Below are positions 36,033-47,857 of a stretch of 47,857 nucleotides of DNA, piece after piece (the stretch's first letter is position 1; the number at the start of each line of letters is the position of its first letter). The notes below the pieces were generated by a model. That model saw only the letters and a program-made list of their open reading frames with translations, was not told the DNA's origin and searched no databases. Source of the DNA: a virus; the IMG/VR virus record IMGVR_UViG_3300047673_000079, positions 1 through 47,857 of that record; one strand, 5' to 3'. The position numbers and the translations under genes are program-made.

Positions 36033-36833
36033 ATGAGCAACATCGTCGCAAGCAACATGACCACGACGCTGGCTTCCAAGCTGGCGCAACGCTTCGGCCT
36101 CGAAGCAAATCCCGAAGTTCTCGACATCCTGAAGGCGACGGCCTTCAAGGGGCAAGTGAGCGACGCACAAATGAGCGCCCTGCTCGTCGTCGCGACTCAA
36201 TACGGCCTGAATCCTTGGACGAAAGAGATCTACGCCTTTCCGGACAAGAACAACGGCATCGTCCCGGTCGTCGGCGTCGATGGCTGGTCGCGGATCATCA
36301 ACGAGCACCCACAGTTCGATGGCCTCGACTTCGAGCAAGACGCCGAGTCGTGCACTTGCATCATCCACCGCAAGGACCGATCGCACCCGATCAAGGTCAC
36401 GGAGTACATGGAGGAATGCAAGCGCGGCACCGGGCCGTGGACGTCGCACCCGAAACGGATGCTGCGCCACAAAGCAATGATCCAGTGCGCACGCCTCGCC
36501 TTCGGTTACGTCGGCATTTACGACCAGGACGAAGCCGAGCGAATCGTCGACATGGGGCCGGCGCAGGAAGTGAAGCGCACGCCAGCTGAAACCGCCGCAG
36601 CTGCTCGGCCGACCGCCGAGCGCACGGAGCGCCACGGCGTTCTGATCGCCGAGCTGGAGTTCATCGCGAAGGAAGGCGGACAGGATGCGCTCGCGAAAGC
36701 ATGGGCCGGCGGCCCGCTCGCGAACGGCGATGCGCTGACGGCGATGGATCGGAAGGCAATCGGCGCTGGCGAGTTGAATCGCCTCAAAGCGATGGCCGGG
36801 GCTGAAGACGTAACCGTGAACGAGGGTGAGTGA
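36033..36833 (+). CDS. bet: Single-strand annealing recombinase (Red beta/RecT type)
   Basis: 266 residues with a good AAGGAG site. The core ILKATAFKGQVSDAQMSALLVVATQYGLNPWTKEIYAFPDKNNGIVPVVGVDGWSRIINEHPQFDG and later HPKRMLRHKAMIQCARLAFGYVGIYDQDEAERI are the Red beta family signature. It anneals strands exposed by the neighbouring exonuclease. The C-terminal 75 residues are Ala-rich and variable. Confidence 0.95.
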   Translation: MSNIVASNMTTTLASKLAQRFGLEANPEVLDILKATAFKGQVSDAQMSALLVVATQYGLNPWTKEIYAFPDKNNGIVPVVGVDGWSRIINEHPQFDGLDFEQDAESCTCIIHRKDRSHPIKVTEYMEECKRGTGPWTSHPKRMLRHKAMIQCARLAFGYVGIYDQDEAERIVDMGPAQEVKRTPAETAAAARPTAERTERHGVLIAELEFIAKEGGQDALAKAWAGGPLANGDALTAMDRKAIGAGELNRLKAMAGAEDVTVNEGE

Positions 36834-36834
36834 G

Positions 36835-37464
36835 ATGAGCGAGCAAATCGAGCAAAGAACCGAAGCATGGTTTGCGCAGCGCGCGGGCAAGATCACTGCC
36901 TCGCGCTTTATTGACGTCATCAGCCTGACCAAGGCGGGGAAGGCGACCGCAGCCCGCGAGCGCTACATGCGCGAGATCGTGTTCGAGCGCCTGAGCGGCA
37001 CGCCGAAGCATTCGGTCGGCGCCCTGTCGCTGAAGTGGGGAACCGACGTCGAGCAGTTCGCCCGCGAGGCATACGAGGTCGAGTCGGGCGATGTGGTGAG
37101 CGAAACCGGCTTCGTGACGCATCCCGACTACCCCTTCATCGGTGGCTCATGCGATGGACTGATCGGCGACGACGGGATCATCGAAATCAAGTGCCCGCAC
37201 GATGAGCAGGTGCACATCGAGACGTGGCTTAACGGCATGTCGCCGGATCACCGCGCTCAGGTGCTTGGAAATCTGCTCGTGACTGGGCGCAAGTATGCCG
37301 TCTTTATCAGTTACGACCCCCGCCAGTCTGAGCGCTTCCGGCTGTATCACCAACGGATCGAGCGCGATGAGGAATTCATCCAAGGCGTGCTTCTGCCCGG
37401 ATTGCTTCAGTTCGAGGCGGAGGCAAACCAGATGATCGAGAGACTCGAAAGGATAGCCTCGTGA
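36835..37464 (+). CDS. exo: YqaJ-type alkaline exonuclease (lambda Exo-like)
   Basis: 209 residues from ATG 36835. Visible are QRTEAWFAQRAGKITASRFIDV, SVGALSLKWGTDVEQFAREAYE and the catalytic block FIGGSCDGLIGDDGIIEIKCPHDEQVH, where the Asp and the EIK Glu/Lys form the PD-(D/E)xK site. It digests one strand of DNA ends so that the Red beta-like protein can anneal. It starts 1 bp after bet. Confidence 0.94.
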   Translation: MSEQIEQRTEAWFAQRAGKITASRFIDVISLTKAGKATAARERYMREIVFERLSGTPKHSVGALSLKWGTDVEQFAREAYEVESGDVVSETGFVTHPDYPFIGGSCDGLIGDDGIIEIKCPHDEQVHIETWLNGMSPDHRAQVLGNLLVTGRKYAVFISYDPRQSERFRLYHQRIERDEEFIQGVLLPGLLQFEAEANQMIERLERIAS

Positions 37465-37958
37465 AAGCCCCCTTTGATGTGGACGAGTTCAAGTCTGCCC
37501 TTTCGTACGACCCCGAGACAGGGCTGTTCACGAGGTTAGACCGGAAATCCGGCAAGGACCGACGCGGAACGATTGCCGGAGCAATCATGCGGTCTGGCCA
37601 CATCCAGATCCGCGTCTGCGGAAGCCTGCACTACGCGCATCGGCTGGCATGGGTCTACATGACTGGAGAGTGGCCGGAAGCGGAAATCGACCACATCAAT
37701 GGCGTCCCGAGCGATAACCGTTGGTCAAACCTGCGCGACGTCTGCCGCACGACAAACGCTCAGAACTTACGCAAACCTAAGGTGACGGGGCGATCAGGCT
37801 TTCTCGGCGTCTCACTGCGGAAAGACACCGGTCGCTATCAAGCGTTCATAACGGTCGAGCGCAAGAGAAAGACGCTTGGATGCTACGCGACAGCTGAGGA
37901 CGCGCACGCGGCCTACCTAGAAGCGAAGCGGCAACTTCATGAAGGAAACACCCTATGA
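37461..37958 (+). CDS. HNH-AP2 homing endonuclease (copy 1)
   Basis: 165 residues, GTG start overlapping exo. HNH core: YAHRLAWVYMTGEWPEAEIDHINGVPSDNRWSNLRDVCRTTNAQN (His-His-Asn pattern). The C-terminal AP2 DNA-binding domain is SGFLGVSLRKDTGRYQAFITVERKRKTLGCYATAEDAHAAYLEAKRQLH. The same architecture occurs at 43297-43791, with clear but far from identical sequence, so they are separate arrivals or an old duplication. Confidence 0.93.
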   Translation: MKAPFDVDEFKSALSYDPETGLFTRLDRKSGKDRRGTIAGAIMRSGHIQIRVCGSLHYAHRLAWVYMTGEWPEAEIDHINGVPSDNRWSNLRDVCRTTNAQNLRKPKVTGRSGFLGVSLRKDTGRYQAFITVERKRKTLGCYATAEDAHAAYLEAKRQLHEGNTL

Positions 37959-38655: not shown

Positions 38656-38916
38656 CTAGAAGTCCATGCTAGAGATGAGGATTCGATCACAAGATTGTTT
38701 CGAGTCGGTTTTTTTGAATGCCACAGCGCAGATGTCTTGATCGTGGGCATAAAAGCATTTCAAGGTCTCTTCTGCTGTGTCCGCGTCATCAGCCCCGAAG
38801 TGGTCACGCAGGGCCTCGAGACTGATCCGAAACCGATCGATTCGGCTACCTGTGCTGAGCGAGAAATCAATTCCGGCATCGCCCGGAATGAACATCACAT
38901 TCAATGGCTGGTACAT
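38656..38916 (-). CDS. DUF1488-like small protein on the antisense strand
   Basis: An 86-residue protein with GGGGAG 6 nt upstream of ATG. Pattern NVMFIPGDAGIDFSLSTGSRIDRFRISLEALRDHFGADD then ETLKCFYAHDQDICAVAFKK resembles DUF1488 proteins (I-x-F-P, an R-F-x-ISLEALRDHFG segment, and I-x-x-VA near the end). It is the only minus-strand gene within the right early operon and is AT-richer, so it may be a lysogen-expressed cargo gene. Function of the family is unknown. Confidence 0.7.
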   Translation of the reverse strand: MYQPLNVMFIPGDAGIDFSLSTGSRIDRFRISLEALRDHFGADDADTAEETLKCFYAHDQDICAVAFKKTDSKQSCDRILISSMDF

Positions 38917-39039
38917 AACGCTCCCCGTTGTTCTGAAAGCGGAAAGCGTAACACGACCAGATCACTACCCCTACCCGGACAGTCCGGGAATCGAACCCCG
39001 TCCGGCGCCCTGCGCCGGATAACGATTAAAGAGGACAGC

Positions 39040-39303
39040 ATGCGTATCAATGTCTATTCGCAGGAGATCACCGACGAGGTTCTGCTGATCGAGAAAGAGT
39101 CGAATACCGGCCTCGTATATAGCGCCGTTCAGATAATCCTCCACAGCAGCGACAAGCTGCATCACCCGCCGCAGGATGATGACCGCAGCGCGGTCACGTT
39201 CTGGCTGCCGAAGTCCGAGCACCGGCGTGAGGCTCTCGCGCTGGCCTTCGAAAACATGGCGAAGCTCGTGCGCAATGCACGCAGCGAAACCGGCCTTGAT
39301 TGA
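39040..39303 (+). CDS. Conserved phage hypothetical, 87 residues
   Basis: ATG 39040 with AGAGGA upstream. MRINVYSQEITDEVLLIEKE, then GLVYSAVQIILHSSDKLHHPPQDDDRSAVTFWLPKSEHRREALALAFENMAKLV, is a compact alpha/beta protein that I recognise from Burkholderia-type phages without known function. It is preceded by a strongly structured leader (two GC hairpins, 38977-39020). Confidence 0.8.
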   Translation: MRINVYSQEITDEVLLIEKESNTGLVYSAVQIILHSSDKLHHPPQDDDRSAVTFWLPKSEHRREALALAFENMAKLVRNARSETGLD

Positions 39304-39491
39304 TGATCCGCCTATCCCACCCCTACCTCGCGCTGCTCGAAGCACTCGACCGCCTAGGCCGCGCGAAGAAAGCCACTGACGCCCTGATCCACGCCGCGTG
39401 CGTGGCCTTCGTGGAAGTGCTCTCGCACATAACCGGAGAGCGAGTCTCGATTGTGATTGGACAGGCTGTTATTGCACGAGGATCGAAATGA
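39303..39491 (+). CDS. Small hypothetical, 62 residues
   Basis: ATG 39303 shares its A with the previous TGA (TGATG), suggesting coupling. The protein begins MIRLSHPYLALLEALDRLGR and is helical. Its last codons lie within the 20-bp element shared with the region before the PAPS-reductase-like gene, so the C-terminus may be incidental. Confidence 0.65.
   Translation: MIRLSHPYLALLEALDRLGRAKKATDALIHAACVAFVEVLSHITGERVSIVIGQAVIARGSK
39456..39475 (+). repeat. 20-bp element before the methyltransferase gene (copy 1)
   Basis: ATTGGACAGGCTGTTATTGC, repeated at 40753-40772 with one change. Both copies end 11-12 bp before a start codon and contain the palindrome ACAG-N-CTGT. It could be a shared regulatory site or the footprint of a recombination event that inserted or duplicated this block. 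Confidence 0.85.
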
Positions 39492-40750
39492 AATTTGGAA
39501 GCGTGTGCAGCGGCATCGAAGCAGCGAGCTGCGCCTGGCATCCGCTCGGCTGGCAAACGCAGTTCGTCAGCGAGATCGAGCCGTTTCCCTCCGCCGTGCT
39601 CGAACACCACTACCCGACCGTGCCGAACCGCGGCGACATGACTCAATTCAAGGAATGGCCTGATGCAACTATCGATCTTCTCGTCGGCGGAACTCCCTGC
39701 CAAAGCTTCAGCGTCGCCGGACTCCGAAAAGGACTGGCTGACCCGCGTGGCAACCTCATGCTCACCTATCTTGCCATTGCTGCACGATTCGCTCCCCGCT
39801 GGCTGGTCTGGGAAAACGTCCCCGGTGTCTTGTCATCCAACGGAGGGAGGGATTTTGGAACCCTTCTCGGAGGGCTGGCAGAACTCGGGTATGGGTTCGC
39901 CTACCGGATTCTTGACGCTCAGTTCTTCGGAGTGGCCCAGCGACGCCGCCGTGTGTTCGTTGTCGGACATTTTGGAGACTGGCGACGTGCCGCAGCGGTA
40001 CTTTTTGAGCGCGAAAGCCTGCTCGGGCATCCTGCGCCGCGCCGGGAATCGCGGGAAGGAGTTGCCCCGACCCTTAGCGCACGCACTAAAGGCGGTGGCG
40101 GCCTCGGAACAGACTTCGAGTGCGATGGCGGCCTGATCGCTCATTCACTGCGTGGTGAGGGCTTCGATGCGAGCGAGGACGGAAGGCCGGTGTCATATGC
40201 GATCCAGGCGGGGGCGCTGCGCGAGAACGTCGCGAGCGGGCCGGATGGAATCGGCGTTCAGTCGGACATCGCATACACGCTTGAGGCGCGCGCCGAAGTG
40301 CAGGCGGTCGCCTTCGCCGAGAACAGCCGCGCCGAGCTCCGACTCGAAGGTGGGGACGGGCAGCGCGTCGGCGCCATCTCGACGGGCGGCGGGAAGCCCG
40401 GTCAAGGCGTGCCGATGATAGCGGTCGGGTTCGACTGCAAGGCATCAGGACAGGCTGGCTTCGGCGTCGGCGACATTGCATCGACGATGCGCAGCATGGG
40501 CCACTCGAACTCACATCAAAACGGTGGCGGGCACCTTGCCGTGCATACCGGCGCCGCAGTCCGCCGCCTGACGCCACGCGAATGCGAGCGCCTGCAAGGC
40601 TTCCCCGACGACTACACGCTGATCAACGTGCGAGGCAAGCCCGCCGCAGACGGTCCGCGCTACAAGGCGCTCGGCAACAGCATGGCCGTGCCGGTGATGC
40701 GCTGGATCGGCGAACGAATTCAAAAGGTCGATGCGCTCAGCGCGTATTGA
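39488..40750 (+). CDS. DNA (cytosine-5) methyltransferase
   Basis: 420 residues. Motif I FGSVCSGIEAASCAW, motif IV GGTPCQSFS with the catalytic Cys71, motif VI WENVPGV, motif VIII AQRRRRVFVVG, then a long variable target-recognition region (about residues 180-345) and motifs IX-X RRLTPRECERLQGFPDDYT and ALGNSMAVPV. No cognate restriction gene is visible, so it is a solitary phage methyltransferase, likely protecting phage DNA from host restriction. Recognition sequence unknown. Confidence 0.95.
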   Translation: MKFGSVCSGIEAASCAWHPLGWQTQFVSEIEPFPSAVLEHHYPTVPNRGDMTQFKEWPDATIDLLVGGTPCQSFSVAGLRKGLADPRGNLMLTYLAIAARFAPRWLVWENVPGVLSSNGGRDFGTLLGGLAELGYGFAYRILDAQFFGVAQRRRRVFVVGHFGDWRRAAAVLFERESLLGHPAPRRESREGVAPTLSARTKGGGGLGTDFECDGGLIAHSLRGEGFDASEDGRPVSYAIQAGALRENVASGPDGIGVQSDIAYTLEARAEVQAVAFAENSRAELRLEGGDGQRVGAISTGGGKPGQGVPMIAVGFDCKASGQAGFGVGDIASTMRSMGHSNSHQNGGGHLAVHTGAAVRRLTPRECERLQGFPDDYTLINVRGKPAADGPRYKALGNSMAVPVMRWIGERIQKVDALSAY

Positions 40751-40752
40751 CC

Positions 40753-40772
40753 ATTGGACAGACTGTTATTGC
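40753..40772 (+). repeat. 20-bp element before the PAPS-reductase-like gene (copy 2)
   Basis: ATTGGACAGACTGTTATTGC, 19 of 20 bases identical to 39456-39475. The two copies bracket the methyltransferase gene 1,297 bp apart. Confidence 0.85.
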
Positions 40773-40783
40773 GAGAGAACAAA

Positions 40784-41782
40784 ATGAGCGATAAGCCCAT
40801 CATGCACGTCGTCTCGATGTCCGGCGGCAAAGACAGCACCGCGACGGCCCTGGTGGCAATCGAGATGCACGGCCGTGAGAACTGCCGGTTCGTGTTCGCT
40901 GACACTGGTAACGAGCACGAAGCGACCTATGAATACGCACAGCAATATCTGCCTACGATGCTCGGCATCAAGGTTGACGTGGTGCGCGCCGACTTCACCG
41001 ACGAATTTGCGACGAAGCGTGCGAATCTCGCGCGGCTCGCCGCCGGGGAGCCGGAATCCGCTGTCTACGGAAAGCGAAAATTCCACTACCCGTGGACGCA
41101 AGAAGCCGCAGCGCGCGCTCTTGAATTGCTTCATCCGACCGGCAACCCGTATCTCGATATGTGCATGCTCAAAGGCGGCTTCCCGTCGCGGAAGCGCCAG
41201 TTCTGCACGCAGTACCTCAAGACTGAGCCGCTGACGGAGTATCAACTCGATCTGATCGATTCAGGATATGACGTGTGGTCTTGGCAGGGCGTCCGCATCG
41301 ACGAAAGCGAATCGCGCCGCACTCGCCTCCAAGGAACCGGCGCATGCGTGAAGTCGTTCGACGTTATTGGTGGCGGGTTGTTTCACTACCGACCGATTCT
41401 ACGTTGGCACGTCGAAGACGTCTTTGAGGCACATGCTCTGGCCGGCATTCAGCCAAATCCACTATATCGACAGGGGATGTCGCGTGTGGGATGCATGCCT
41501 TGCATCAACGCATCGAAGGCTGAGCTGGCTGAGATCGCACGCAGATTTCCAGACGAGATTGAGCGGCTCGCCGAGTGGGAGCGCCTTGTATCGAACGTAA
41601 CGCGCCCGCACTCACCCGTGTCTTTTTTCCATATGGGCACTCAGGGGCACAAGGGACAAGCGTCAACGATTTGGTCTGTCGTTGAGTGGTCGAAAACGAC
41701 GCGCGGCGGTCGCCAGTATGACCTGCTTGAGCCGACCTATGACGCGGCGGCATGCTCATCGGCCTATGGCCTGTGCGAATGA
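40784..41782 (+). CDS. PAPS reductase/DndC-like PP-loop protein
   Basis: 332 residues. The ATP PP-loop SMSGGKDSTATAL (about residues 11-23) and FVFADTGNEHEATYEY place it in the PAPS-reductase/ATP-sulfurylase-like N-type ATP pyrophosphatase family. A Cys set (RQFCTQYLK, RVGCMPCINASKAELAEIARRFPDE) could bind metal. Phage members are poorly characterised; roles in sulfur chemistry on DNA or nucleotides have been proposed for relatives such as DndC. It follows the methyltransferase behind the same 20-bp element, which suggests a DNA-modification or counter-defence pair (inference). Confidence 0.88.
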   Translation: MSDKPIMHVVSMSGGKDSTATALVAIEMHGRENCRFVFADTGNEHEATYEYAQQYLPTMLGIKVDVVRADFTDEFATKRANLARLAAGEPESAVYGKRKFHYPWTQEAAARALELLHPTGNPYLDMCMLKGGFPSRKRQFCTQYLKTEPLTEYQLDLIDSGYDVWSWQGVRIDESESRRTRLQGTGACVKSFDVIGGGLFHYRPILRWHVEDVFEAHALAGIQPNPLYRQGMSRVGCMPCINASKAELAEIARRFPDEIERLAEWERLVSNVTRPHSPVSFFHMGTQGHKGQASTIWSVVEWSKTTRGGRQYDLLEPTYDAAACSSAYGLCE

Positions 41783-41816
41783 CGACACCTAGCCACCCTT
41801 CATTTTTGAGGAAAGC

Positions 41817-42491
41817 ATGACCAAGAAAATTGACGCTCTCGTAGACGAGGCAATGTCCCAAGCGCAGGTATTCGCCAGTGCATGGTCGCTTGTCGGCGGA
41901 ATATTCGACCACGGCAACGCGCTCGAAAACGCTGAAGTCGAGAAGAAGGCGCTGCGTGCGCTCATCGCAGACCTTCTCTCCGCGAGCATCGCCGACACAG
42001 CGAAGCCTTCGCTGAAGGATCACGCGCGTCAGTTCGCAACTGACTTCACGCGGGAAATTGGTTTCGCAATGAGCGACCATGCACAAGAGGTCATGCTCAA
42101 TCTGTTCCTGAAACATGCCGCCAGCGCGCAGAGCATCGCCGACACAGCGGGGGCGAAGCCGCTCGATCTGTTGCCGAATGCGCTTTGGACGCGGCGAGGT
42201 TCTGGCACTGATGAATGGTGGTCTTTCAAGGGCTATCAGGCCCGGAAGGATGCCGCCGACCAATGGGTGCTTCGCAAGGGCGGAGAAGAACTGTATCGCC
42301 ACACCTATCTGCAAGTGGTGATGGCGCACGCCGAGCGCGCGCTTCTCGCCGCCACTCCCGCGAGTTCGGTAGCCGATGCGGCGGGGGCGAAAACAACGCT
42401 CAACTTCGACGGGACTGTCGACATTACGTGCGCTCATTGCGGCGGAAACGGCTGCTTTGCATGCCTTCGAAAGGAGTCCGGCAATGAATAA
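41817..42491 (+). CDS. Phage hypothetical, 224 residues, with internal repeats
   Basis: The N-terminal half is helical. The phrase SIADTA occurs twice, encoded by a 19-bp perfect DNA repeat (41984-42002 and 42131-42149), and a diverged third copy (SSVADAAGAKTTL) precedes the C-terminus. The end carries CAHCGGNGCFACLRK, a small zinc-binding type motif. GAGGAAAG lies upstream. It looks like a mosaic of short modules. Function unknown. Confidence 0.8.
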   Translation: MTKKIDALVDEAMSQAQVFASAWSLVGGIFDHGNALENAEVEKKALRALIADLLSASIADTAKPSLKDHARQFATDFTREIGFAMSDHAQEVMLNLFLKHAASAQSIADTAGAKPLDLLPNALWTRRGSGTDEWWSFKGYQARKDAADQWVLRKGGEELYRHTYLQVVMAHAERALLAATPASSVADAAGAKTTLNFDGTVDITCAHCGGNGCFACLRKESGNE

Positions 42492-42918
42492 CGAAATCCG
42501 CAATCGACTTCAGCACGCGCTAGCCCACGCCGCGCGGAACGGCTCAGTCTTGGAATCCCATGTCGCCGTGCTCAAGTCGGACATCCGCGCCCTTCTCGCA
42601 GCGGGCGCGAGTGAGGGGCAGGCGGAGCCGATCTATCAAGTGCGCCCACGAAACGGCGAAGAGTGGACTGATGTAAGTGAAGCCGAATACCACATCAGTG
42701 GGGGCGCGGGTTATTTGCAGCGCATTGTCTACCTCCGCCCCTCCGCCGAGATCGCCGCGCTGCGCGAGCGGATCGCGGGGATGGAGAAGGATGCACTTAG
42801 GTATCGGTGGCTTCGCGAAGGAGGTCAAGAGCAAGAGGACGTGTTCGGCAGCGTATGGGCTGATTCGCTCGACGGCGCCATTGACCGAGCAAGGCAATCC
42901 GGGGAGGAAGGGAAATGA
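42484..42918 (+). CDS. Phage hypothetical, 144 residues
   Basis: ATG 42484 overlaps the previous gene. The N-terminal helix is followed by YQVRPRNGEEWTDVSEAEYH, then IAALRERIAGMEKDALRYRWLREGGQEQEDVFGSVWADSLDGAIDRARQ. The latter RYRWLR...DGAIDRA motif is common in proteobacterial phage early proteins. Function unknown. Confidence 0.82.
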   Translation: MNNEIRNRLQHALAHAARNGSVLESHVAVLKSDIRALLAAGASEGQAEPIYQVRPRNGEEWTDVSEAEYHISGGAGYLQRIVYLRPSAEIAALRERIAGMEKDALRYRWLREGGQEQEDVFGSVWADSLDGAIDRARQSGEEGK

Positions 42919-43115
42919 AGTTCAACGCAAAGCTGCCACGCACAAAGCCGCGGCCGGGCGCGGCGTACATCCTGTTCTCCGTAAAGGATGCGCACGGCAA
43001 CCGAGTAGAAGTCGAGGGCCTTTATCCCGACTCGACGATTGCCGAAGTCTGGAACGTCATCAAAGGCAAGGTTCTGCTGCAAGACGCGCAGAGCGGCGAG
43101 GAGAAGGCACCGTGA
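42915..43115 (+). CDS. Small hypothetical, 66 residues
   Basis: A basic N-terminus (MKFNAKLPRTKPRPG) is followed by AAYILFSVKDAHGNRVEVEGLYPDSTIAEVWNVIKGKVLLQD, a probable small alpha/beta fold. ATGA overlap upstream and GTGA overlap downstream. No family recognised. Confidence 0.72.
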   Translation: MKFNAKLPRTKPRPGAAYILFSVKDAHGNRVEVEGLYPDSTIAEVWNVIKGKVLLQDAQSGEEKAP

Positions 43116-43300
43116 AGCCATCCACCGCCCAGCGCATCGAACATCAGATCGACGCGGCGATCTACTCGCTGGAGGCGATCCCGGCGCGCACCGCTGGCCT
43201 GCACGAATACGCCCAACAGAACATCACCCGGCGCATGACGCTAGACGCATACCGATATGTCGAGTTCGCGCATTGGCTGCTGATTAGGGAGGGAATGTGA
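43112..43300 (+). CDS. Small hypothetical, 62 residues
   Basis: GTG 43112 overlaps the previous stop. A helical protein (AQRIEHQIDAAIYSLEAIPARTAGLHEYAQQNITRRMTLDAYRYVEFAHWLLI). It ends overlapping the GTG of the HNH-AP2 gene. No family recognised. Confidence 0.68.
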   Translation: MKPSTAQRIEHQIDAAIYSLEAIPARTAGLHEYAQQNITRRMTLDAYRYVEFAHWLLIREGM

Positions 43301-43791
43301 GCGCTCGAACCAAGGAACTGACCGCAGAAATGGCCCGTGAGATGCTGGATTACGACCCCTTGACGGGGATTTTTAGATGGAAGATAGACAGGGTTCATAA
43401 CGCGAAGGCCGGCGATATAGCCGGGTATAAGGACAGCCTCGGATACATGCGGCTAAGCATCTTCGGAATGAAGTATCTCTGTCACCGTCTAGCATGGCTC
43501 ATCACAACGGGAAGTTGGCCTACAAAGAATATTGATCACGTCGATGGTGATAGAAGAAATAACCGGTTCTCGAATCTTCGAGATGTATCGCAGATGACGA
43601 ACATCCAGAATCAGCGAGTATCTCGACGCAATGGAAAATTGCTTGGAGTCTCCAAAAATCGAAAGAGGTGGGCGGCGACGATCATGGCATGCGGGAAGAA
43701 AACATACCTTGGTACCTTCGACACACAAGAACTTGCACACGAAGCTTATGTGGAAGCGAAGCGACGACTTCATGAGGGCTGCACGATATGA
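43297..43791 (+). CDS. HNH-AP2 homing endonuclease (copy 2)
   Basis: 164 residues, GTG start. HNH core CHRLAWLITTGSWPTKNIDHVDGDRRNNRFSNLRDVSQMTNIQNQ; AP2 domain GKLLGVSKNRKRWAATIMACGKKTYLGTFDTQELAHEAYVEAKRRLHEG. GC is clearly lower than in neighbouring genes, a sign of recent arrival. It sits just before xis without breaking any gene; both overlaps are 4 bp. Confidence 0.93.
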   Translation: MSARTKELTAEMAREMLDYDPLTGIFRWKIDRVHNAKAGDIAGYKDSLGYMRLSIFGMKYLCHRLAWLITTGSWPTKNIDHVDGDRRNNRFSNLRDVSQMTNIQNQRVSRRNGKLLGVSKNRKRWAATIMACGKKTYLGTFDTQELAHEAYVEAKRRLHEGCTI

Positions 43792-47533: not shown

Positions 47534-47845
47534 TTACGTGACGCTGAGAAGCATGCGAGTGCCTACGGACACTGCGATCGTGCGGCTGTCTGTTGCGCCG
47601 CTGCTCGTGGTGATGGTGATCGCAACCATGTACGTCGCGCCGCTCGCGCCTCCTCCGAGCCAGAACGTGACGACGCCAGAGCTCGTCGACGTCGATTTGC
47701 CGGACGGATTCACTGTGATGCCGGCGTCGGCCGTGACGGTGGCGTCGGCGATCGTCTCGCCGCTTGCGAGCCACTGCGACCAGTCCATTTCATACGGAAG
47801 AATTGCGGCCGGAGATTTCGGCGGCAACTGCTGAGAAAGACTCAT
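47534..47845 (-). CDS. Phage fibre-tail adaptor protein (Gp77-like)
   Basis: 103 residues: MSLSQQLPPKSPAAILPYEMDWSQWLASGETIADATVTADAG, then VVTFWLGGGASGATYMVAITITTSSGATDSRTIAVSV. The DWSQWLASGETI and FWL-x-GG...T-x-DSRTI pattern is that of small Ig-like proteins that join fibres to tails (Gp77 family). Complete copy; the window start repeats its first 190 bases. On the circle it follows the repeat-built structural protein by 8 bp. Confidence 0.87.
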   Translation of the reverse strand: MSLSQQLPPKSPAAILPYEMDWSQWLASGETIADATVTADAGITVNPSGKSTSTSSGVVTFWLGGGASGATYMVAITITTSSGATDSRTIAVSVGTRMLLSVT

Positions 47846-47857
47846 GTCGCTCCTTAT
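47656..47857. repeat. Right copy of the 202-bp terminal overlap
   Basis: Identical to 1-202 except for G at 47730 against T at 75. Confidence 0.95.

Follow-up and report, generated by a model that had tools for sequence, protein, structure and literature searches.

A 20-bp element before two phage genes as a probable gene-swap joint in a hyper-mosaic accessory zone of Burkholderiaceae phages

Introduction

Why should the same 20-bp sequence stand, at almost the same distance, before two different genes of one phage? The window that we analysed, the whole 47,857-nt viral record IMGVR_UViG_3300047673_000079, is bounded by a 202-bp direct repeat (1–202 and 47656–47857, with one mismatch, at base 75), and is therefore probably a complete, circularly closed phage genome. 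Within it, the element ATTGGACAG(G/A)CTGTTATTGC precedes both a DNA methyltransferase gene and a gene for a PAPS-reductase-like protein. An earlier note on this DNA proposed that the pair could be co-regulated as a DNA-modification or anti-restriction module, and that recombination between the repeats could also cause the methyltransferase to be lost or gained. Here we argue, at a probability that we put at about three in four, that the element is a conserved boundary sequence, a gene-swap joint, at which neighbouring genes are exchanged by short-homology recombination.

Results

Two copies of the element adjoin two translation starts

The two copies of the element, a G variant at 39456–39475 (copy 1) and an A variant at 40753–40772 (copy 2), both on the plus strand and of the sequence type that we designate Q below, are spaced 1297 bp apart. 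There is no third copy in the window even when three mismatches are allowed, 100 shuffles yielded no chance match at up to three mismatches, and the palindrome ACAG-N-CTGT is found in both copies and nowhere else in the window. The start codon follows 32 bases after the beginning of the element in copy 1 (ATG at 39488) and 31 bases in copy 2 (ATG at 40784), leaving gaps of 12 and 11 bases, respectively, between the end of the element and the ATG. Coordinates and shuffles thus confirm the observation that prompted the earlier note, namely a shared, palindrome-bearing element at nearly equal distance from both genes.

Copy 1 is coding: it forms the 3' end (..IGQAVIARGSK*) of a 62-aa ORF that is conserved in relatives (39303–39491, plus strand; 32 relatives in viral contigs, and also found in prophages). 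The TGA of this small ORF overlaps, as AAATGA, the ATG of the C5-cytosine DNA methyltransferase gene (39488–40750, plus strand, 420 aa; PF00145, E = 2.6e-53; phrog_116), and ACGAGG occupies the ribosome-binding position between copy 1 and the methyltransferase start, with the Shine-Dalgarno sequence and the overlapping start and stop together spanning 39476–39491 (plus strand). The joint combines three parts: the coding 3' end of the small ORF, a ribosome-binding site, and a start codon that overlaps the stop. Copy 2, which has no small ORF, begins 2 bases after the methyltransferase stop codon and precedes the gene for the PAPS-reductase-like PP-loop protein (40784–41782, plus strand, 332 aa; PF01507, E = 1.3e-20; phrog_424, E = 3e-71). 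On the other side, an 87-aa cassette gene (39040–39303, plus strand; phrog_20753, E = 2e-47) ends in a TGA that overlaps the start of the small ORF. Further out, 2.0–3.5 kb upstream of the joint, are genes for a Bet/RecT-like single-strand annealing protein (36033–36833, plus strand; phrog_252, E = 2e-87; PF03837 over the cut-off) and a RecE/lambda-type exonuclease (36826–37464, plus strand; phrog_149, E = 9e-37; phrog_434).

The joint recurs in three main types before unrelated genes

Loci were gathered from viral contigs by scanning for the element (10 loci) or searching with the small ORF (32 loci); joint counts are therefore ascertained, and some of the phages are near relatives. On this basis the joint was found in about 35 relatives, comprising Burkholderiaceae prophages and viral contigs. 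The small ORF is also present in a prophage of Burkholderia sp. 8Y and in further Burkholderiaceae genomes, its profile matching 17 of the 58 genomes in the genus of that strain (E ≤ 0.01), about 10 of them strongly. Despite its presence in dozens of Burkholderiaceae phages, the small ORF matched no PHROG, Pfam or PADLOC family, and tblastn found no match to it among 50,697 phage records. In other members of the family there are distant homologues whose ends are GC-rich. Exact-pattern matches in four contigs (L007, L013, L014 and L015) were set aside as chance or unrelated coding matches.

The joint occurs as three main sequence types, which differ in how the small ORF ends: Q as in the window, N with GTCGGGAATGCTGTTATTGC and E with ATTGGCGAAACACCTATTGC; a fourth type, T, is rarer. 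Behind each type come a purine-rich ribosome-binding sequence and then the start of a different gene. In all, we gathered 46 distinct copies, of which 31 immediately follow the small ORF; reversed control patterns found none. Whole-record scans gave 1–3 copies per phage, located in the same slot as far as examined, and in one contig (L025/L100) N, E and Q joints stand together in one array. The genes downstream form about 28 blastp clusters, corresponding to about 27 unrelated families, including several C5 methyltransferases, an N6/N4 methyltransferase, Lar-type restriction alleviation and ASCH proteins, Cro/CI-type HTH and HNH proteins, PAPS-like proteins and unknowns. Relatives with the joint and no methyltransferase, which the earlier note had suggested looking for, do exist, and in them other genes follow the joint.

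This diversity bears directly on the proposed co-regulation, according to which a regulator would bind the palindrome and control the methyltransferase and the PAPS-like gene together as a modification or anti-restriction module. The palindrome is indeed present in both window copies and in exact Q-type copies elsewhere, and many cassettes are modification or anti-restriction genes. It is limited to type Q, however, and N and E joints lack it at the equivalent position; copy 1 is itself coding sequence, and we detected no sigma-70 promoter-like site in 38900–43200. RNA folding of five joint regions was no better than that of shuffles (z from -1.5 to +1.0). The element, moreover, precedes about 27 unrelated gene families, and the methyltransferase and PAPS gene of the window are found apart: where relatives of the methyltransferase stand behind joints (L005, L028, L044 and L059), the next gene is not PAPS-like, while L041 and L051 carry PAPS-like genes behind the small ORF without the methyltransferase. 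Since the other joint types lack the palindrome and the gene pair is not conserved among relatives, we rejected palindrome-based co-regulation, which we regard as extremely improbable; the idea of a two-gene modification module is likewise not supported, and the 20-base element is probably not a switch controlling both genes together.

The PAPS-like protein itself gives partial matches to the SspD (1e-23) and DndC (6e-8) models, and fits phrog_424 and PF01507 as well. The SspD model fits better than that of DndC; tests of ten neighbouring ORFs revealed no companion gene of Dnd or Ssp type. In one relative (L061), a protein 49% identical to it is encoded just upstream of a small-ORF homologue.

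Genes beside the joint have been repeatedly replaced

Comparison of the relatives shows that genes beside the conserved joint have been replaced repeatedly and cassettes stacked with their own joints, with frames and starts kept. Five downstream gene families are not tied to a single joint type. The C5 methyltransferase of the window is found behind Q (window and L059), N (L028) and E (L005 and L044), the N6/N4 methyltransferase family behind all three, ASCH behind N and E, HTH behind N and an orphan Q (orphan joints being those without the small ORF), and HNH behind Q and E. Nearly identical small ORFs, in turn, bear different joints and genes: the body of the window's small ORF is 94% identical to N-type ORFs and belongs to the same clade (support 99/96), yet has a Q end, and that of L027 is 93% identical but has an E end.

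Mosaic breakpoints fall at the joint. Among 91 pairs of loci homologous to the left and unrelated to the right, 67 change-points lie at +17 to +40 of the joint start, 21 at -29 to -6 and 3 elsewhere, so that 88 of the 91 are within -29 to +40. In 547 pairs of joint copies with both flanks unrelated, the exact common runs reach up to 40 nt; random 90-mers, taken as a control, share at most 10 nt.

The arrangement in the window has close counterparts in which single cassettes differ. The window and L005 are 91–95% identical in alignable parts over a stretch that begins at the methyltransferase start codon and runs through copy 2, to 40781; beyond it, the window continues with the PAPS gene vs an HTH gene in L005. 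A related HTH gene stands directly behind the small ORF in L018, but follows a methyltransferase and its own joint in L036. Orphan joints precede second and third cassette genes. In 10 of the 13 orphan copies the preceding stop codon lies 1–5 nt before the joint; in the remaining three (L020, L023 and L052), as well as in L100, the methyltransferase before the joint runs into it as an in-frame fusion, ending in ..ADEVIGETPIAREK* or a variant of this, and thereby again stops at the start of the next gene. The two copies flanking the window's methyltransferase would accordingly represent one added cassette, and recombination between them could delete the methyltransferase. The earlier note's suggestion that the repeats mediate its loss or gain thus gains support from sequence comparison, with the joint followed by other genes in relatives.

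Exact identity islands extend the pattern to further joints and to protein linkers

We also scanned the loci, grouped by contig and without any preset pattern, for exact matches of 20 bases or more whose flanks are unrelated on both sides. The scan returned 3835 island pairs, which fall into 45 families; the largest, present in 21 contigs, is that of the E/Q/N joint. Between -1 and +3 kb relative to the small ORF, each phage has 1.3–2.8 islands per kb, vs about 0.5 or less outside this range, and the main islands of the window are found at 39.0–43.1 kb. These data are best explained by a hyper-mosaic accessory zone of about 4 kb, built at conserved boundary sequences that carry a translation start.

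Three further start-associated joints, all on the plus strand, belong to this zone. The second (39002–39042, ..CGGATAACGATTAAAGAGGACAGC-ATG; an island in 10 contigs) has 11 distinct copies in 10 left and 10 right contexts, with the ATG directly after it in 11 of 11, and its exact 31-mer is present in 12 viral stretches. The third (42883–42918; 15 contigs) again combines a gene end, a Shine-Dalgarno sequence and an overlapping start, and occurs in 20 left and 20 right contexts; the fourth (43079–43106, ..CAGAGCGGCGAGGAGAAG..; 9 contigs) has 12 left and 11 right contexts.

Other islands, likewise on the plus strand, encode in-frame protein linkers. The ASIADTA linker lies at 41975–42008, with the consensus frame in 19 of 19 copies, and the island scan placed a second copy at 42131–42161; the SVADAAGA linker follows at 42344–42390 (10 contigs), and then come further islands at 42597–42626 (6 contigs) and 42738–42794 (7 contigs), the latter probably a coding linker. 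The linker families ASIADTA, PSDKQEA, ESRVLAER, LAQSAEQD and HPTPDDA keep their consensus frame in 86 of 87 copies, and the 21-mer of the PSDKQEA linker, CCGAGCGACAAGCAAGAGGCG, is exact in 33 viral stretches. The contigs with this last linker (L103–L126) include some of 113–168 kb, which are possibly larger phages, or else fragments that include host DNA. Segments behind the linkers are shuffled between relatives: a 45-residue segment, KPSLKDHARQF.., follows SIADTA in the window, and its homologue follows ESRVLAER in L003. In the ORF at 41817–42491, the first 56 residues resemble Mu Gam/host-nuclease inhibitor, and the rest consists of linker-joined modules common to unrelated proteins of relatives.

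Could the islands be passive debris of illegitimate recombination, short remnants of ancestral genes that persist by recent common descent and serve neither exchange nor expression? The end types do cluster on the small-ORF tree (7 changes vs a shuffled mean of 16), so that linkage is substantial, and about 70% of phage mosaics are reported to be without homology traces (PMC3945230). Debris, however, does not readily explain why the joint was kept while both flanks were replaced, many times and in several types, why it is intact in L009 despite an in-frame loss of about 27 internal residues of the small ORF, or why the frame was retained in all but one of the linkers. We therefore consider this explanation unlikely.

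The joint resembles, but differs from, a start-site signal

A second possibility is that the element is a translation-initiation or start-site signal comparable to the start-associated sequences (SAS) of cluster K mycobacteriophages, in which case exchange could occur anywhere between genes and selection would keep the starts that bear the signal. SAS and ESAS are repeats located a few bases before the starts of various gene families in the non-structural region; the SAS is a 13-bp sequence with 11–19 copies per genome, and the SAS/ESAS consensus, GGGATAGGAGCCC, lies 3–7 bp before the start (PMC3203893). Like the SAS, which it resembles in location (PMC3203893), the joint stands at start codons of different gene families: it always adjoins a start codon with a ribosome-binding site, and the ATGA overlap is seen at 20 of the 46 copies. 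Its codons, moreover, are A/T-rich at third positions (GC3 0.32 vs 0.78 elsewhere in the small ORF). Their pooled synonymous identity of 0.61, from mixed types, is not clearly above the 0.55 of the rest of the ORF, so that selection on the joint DNA itself is not demonstrated. Unlike the SAS, the joint is 20 bp long, is unrelated in sequence and has 1–3 copies per phage, which is not what a genome-wide signal would give. Most copies are the coding ends of one ORF, as the SAS is not described to be, and three different sequence types occupy one position. Finally, the in-frame linkers give an equal island pattern with no start codon. Taken together, these observations leave the start-signal reading a tangible, if doubtful, possibility.

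Proposed recombination at the joint, perhaps with a phage annealase

From the mosaic pattern and the nearby annealase gene we infer that genes are exchanged by recombination at the joint, perhaps via a phage annealase. Short-homology recombination between joint copies of a phage and a prophage would exchange their cassettes, and a phage annealase, Bet-like in the window, could help exchange at joints of 20–40 bp. Exchange at short homologies is driven by Rad52-like recombinases, with a quoted minimum of about 30 bp for Red-beta (PMC3945230). Of the 34 records, many of which are fragments, only 15 have a recognised RecT or ERF protein, which makes an annealase role plausible but not general. 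Against joint-directed exchange, the 20–40 identical bases of the joints are near or below the Red-beta minimum. Homology alone, furthermore, does not account for a stop codon joined to the left edge of the next joint.

Cutting by endonucleases could in principle drive exchange instead: HNH or homing endonucleases in or beside the zone would cut the joint in phages without the cassette. Some cassettes are HNH genes (L002, and by resemblance L046 and L060), and two HNH/homing-endonuclease-like ORFs (37461–37958 and 43297–43791) flank the mosaic zone. Most cassettes, however, carry no endonuclease, and the three joint types would require different specificities, which makes this mechanism very unlikely.

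For recombination at the joint, the make-up of the joint suggests why it would persist: a cassette that arrives with its joint brings a working, translationally coupled start site, and since the joint supplies this coupled start through the ATGA overlap, the arriving gene would be expressible at once. A bolder extension, that start-site joints and in-frame linkers form a standing set of interchangeable joints selected as exchange sites, is in our estimate improbable; if it holds, the accessory zone would be an integrase-free assembly line for cassettes, and the order of genes as well as that of protein domains would be shuffled there.

Discussion

How does this zone compare with known systems? 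Temperate phages have morons, or accessory slots: one position in the early region that holds variable genes, many of them concerned with DNA modification and restriction. The zone shares with these its single early-region position and its variable accessory genes; unlike morons, its cassettes have no detected promoter or terminator of their own, and are joined, and can be stacked, through shared start sites. Cassette shuffling by the PeSLs (promoter early stem-loops) of T4-type phages has reportedly been treated by Arbiol in 2010 and Comeau in 2014. PeSLs are described as small mobile intergenic cis elements that let cassettes shuffle (PMC4503421, which cites both). Unlike these, the joint has neither a promoter-like site nor a stable stem-loop, and carries a translation start rather than a promoter and terminator.

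A further precedent is found in lambdoid phages, where short common sequences at module boundaries have unrelated genes on either side and were proposed, in older work, as sites of homologous exchange (PMC3029335); at most boundaries such sequences cannot be identified (PMC3029335). Here, too, a common sequence at a gene boundary lies between unrelated flanks, with breakpoints at the sequence. In contrast to the lambdoid case, the boundary is formed by the 3' coding end of a single small ORF together with a ribosome-binding site and a start; it occurs as several discrete types, has many partner genes and is matched by in-frame protein linkers. That boundary sequences create mosaics is an old and disputed idea; as PeSL and SAS, the nearest analogues, each fail a defining feature here, we rate this zone as a new and unusually rich form of it, and a literature search returned nothing relevant describing this Burkholderia zone.

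Whether mosaicism stems from boundary sequences or from illegitimate recombination is a long-standing debate (PMC3029335, PMC3945230), in part because clear boundary sequences are seldom found. With dozens of phages, discrete joint types, stacking and in-frame linkers, the zone offers a natural set on which the debate can be tested directly, and it illustrates a way in which methyltransferases and other anti-restriction genes may pass between such phages.
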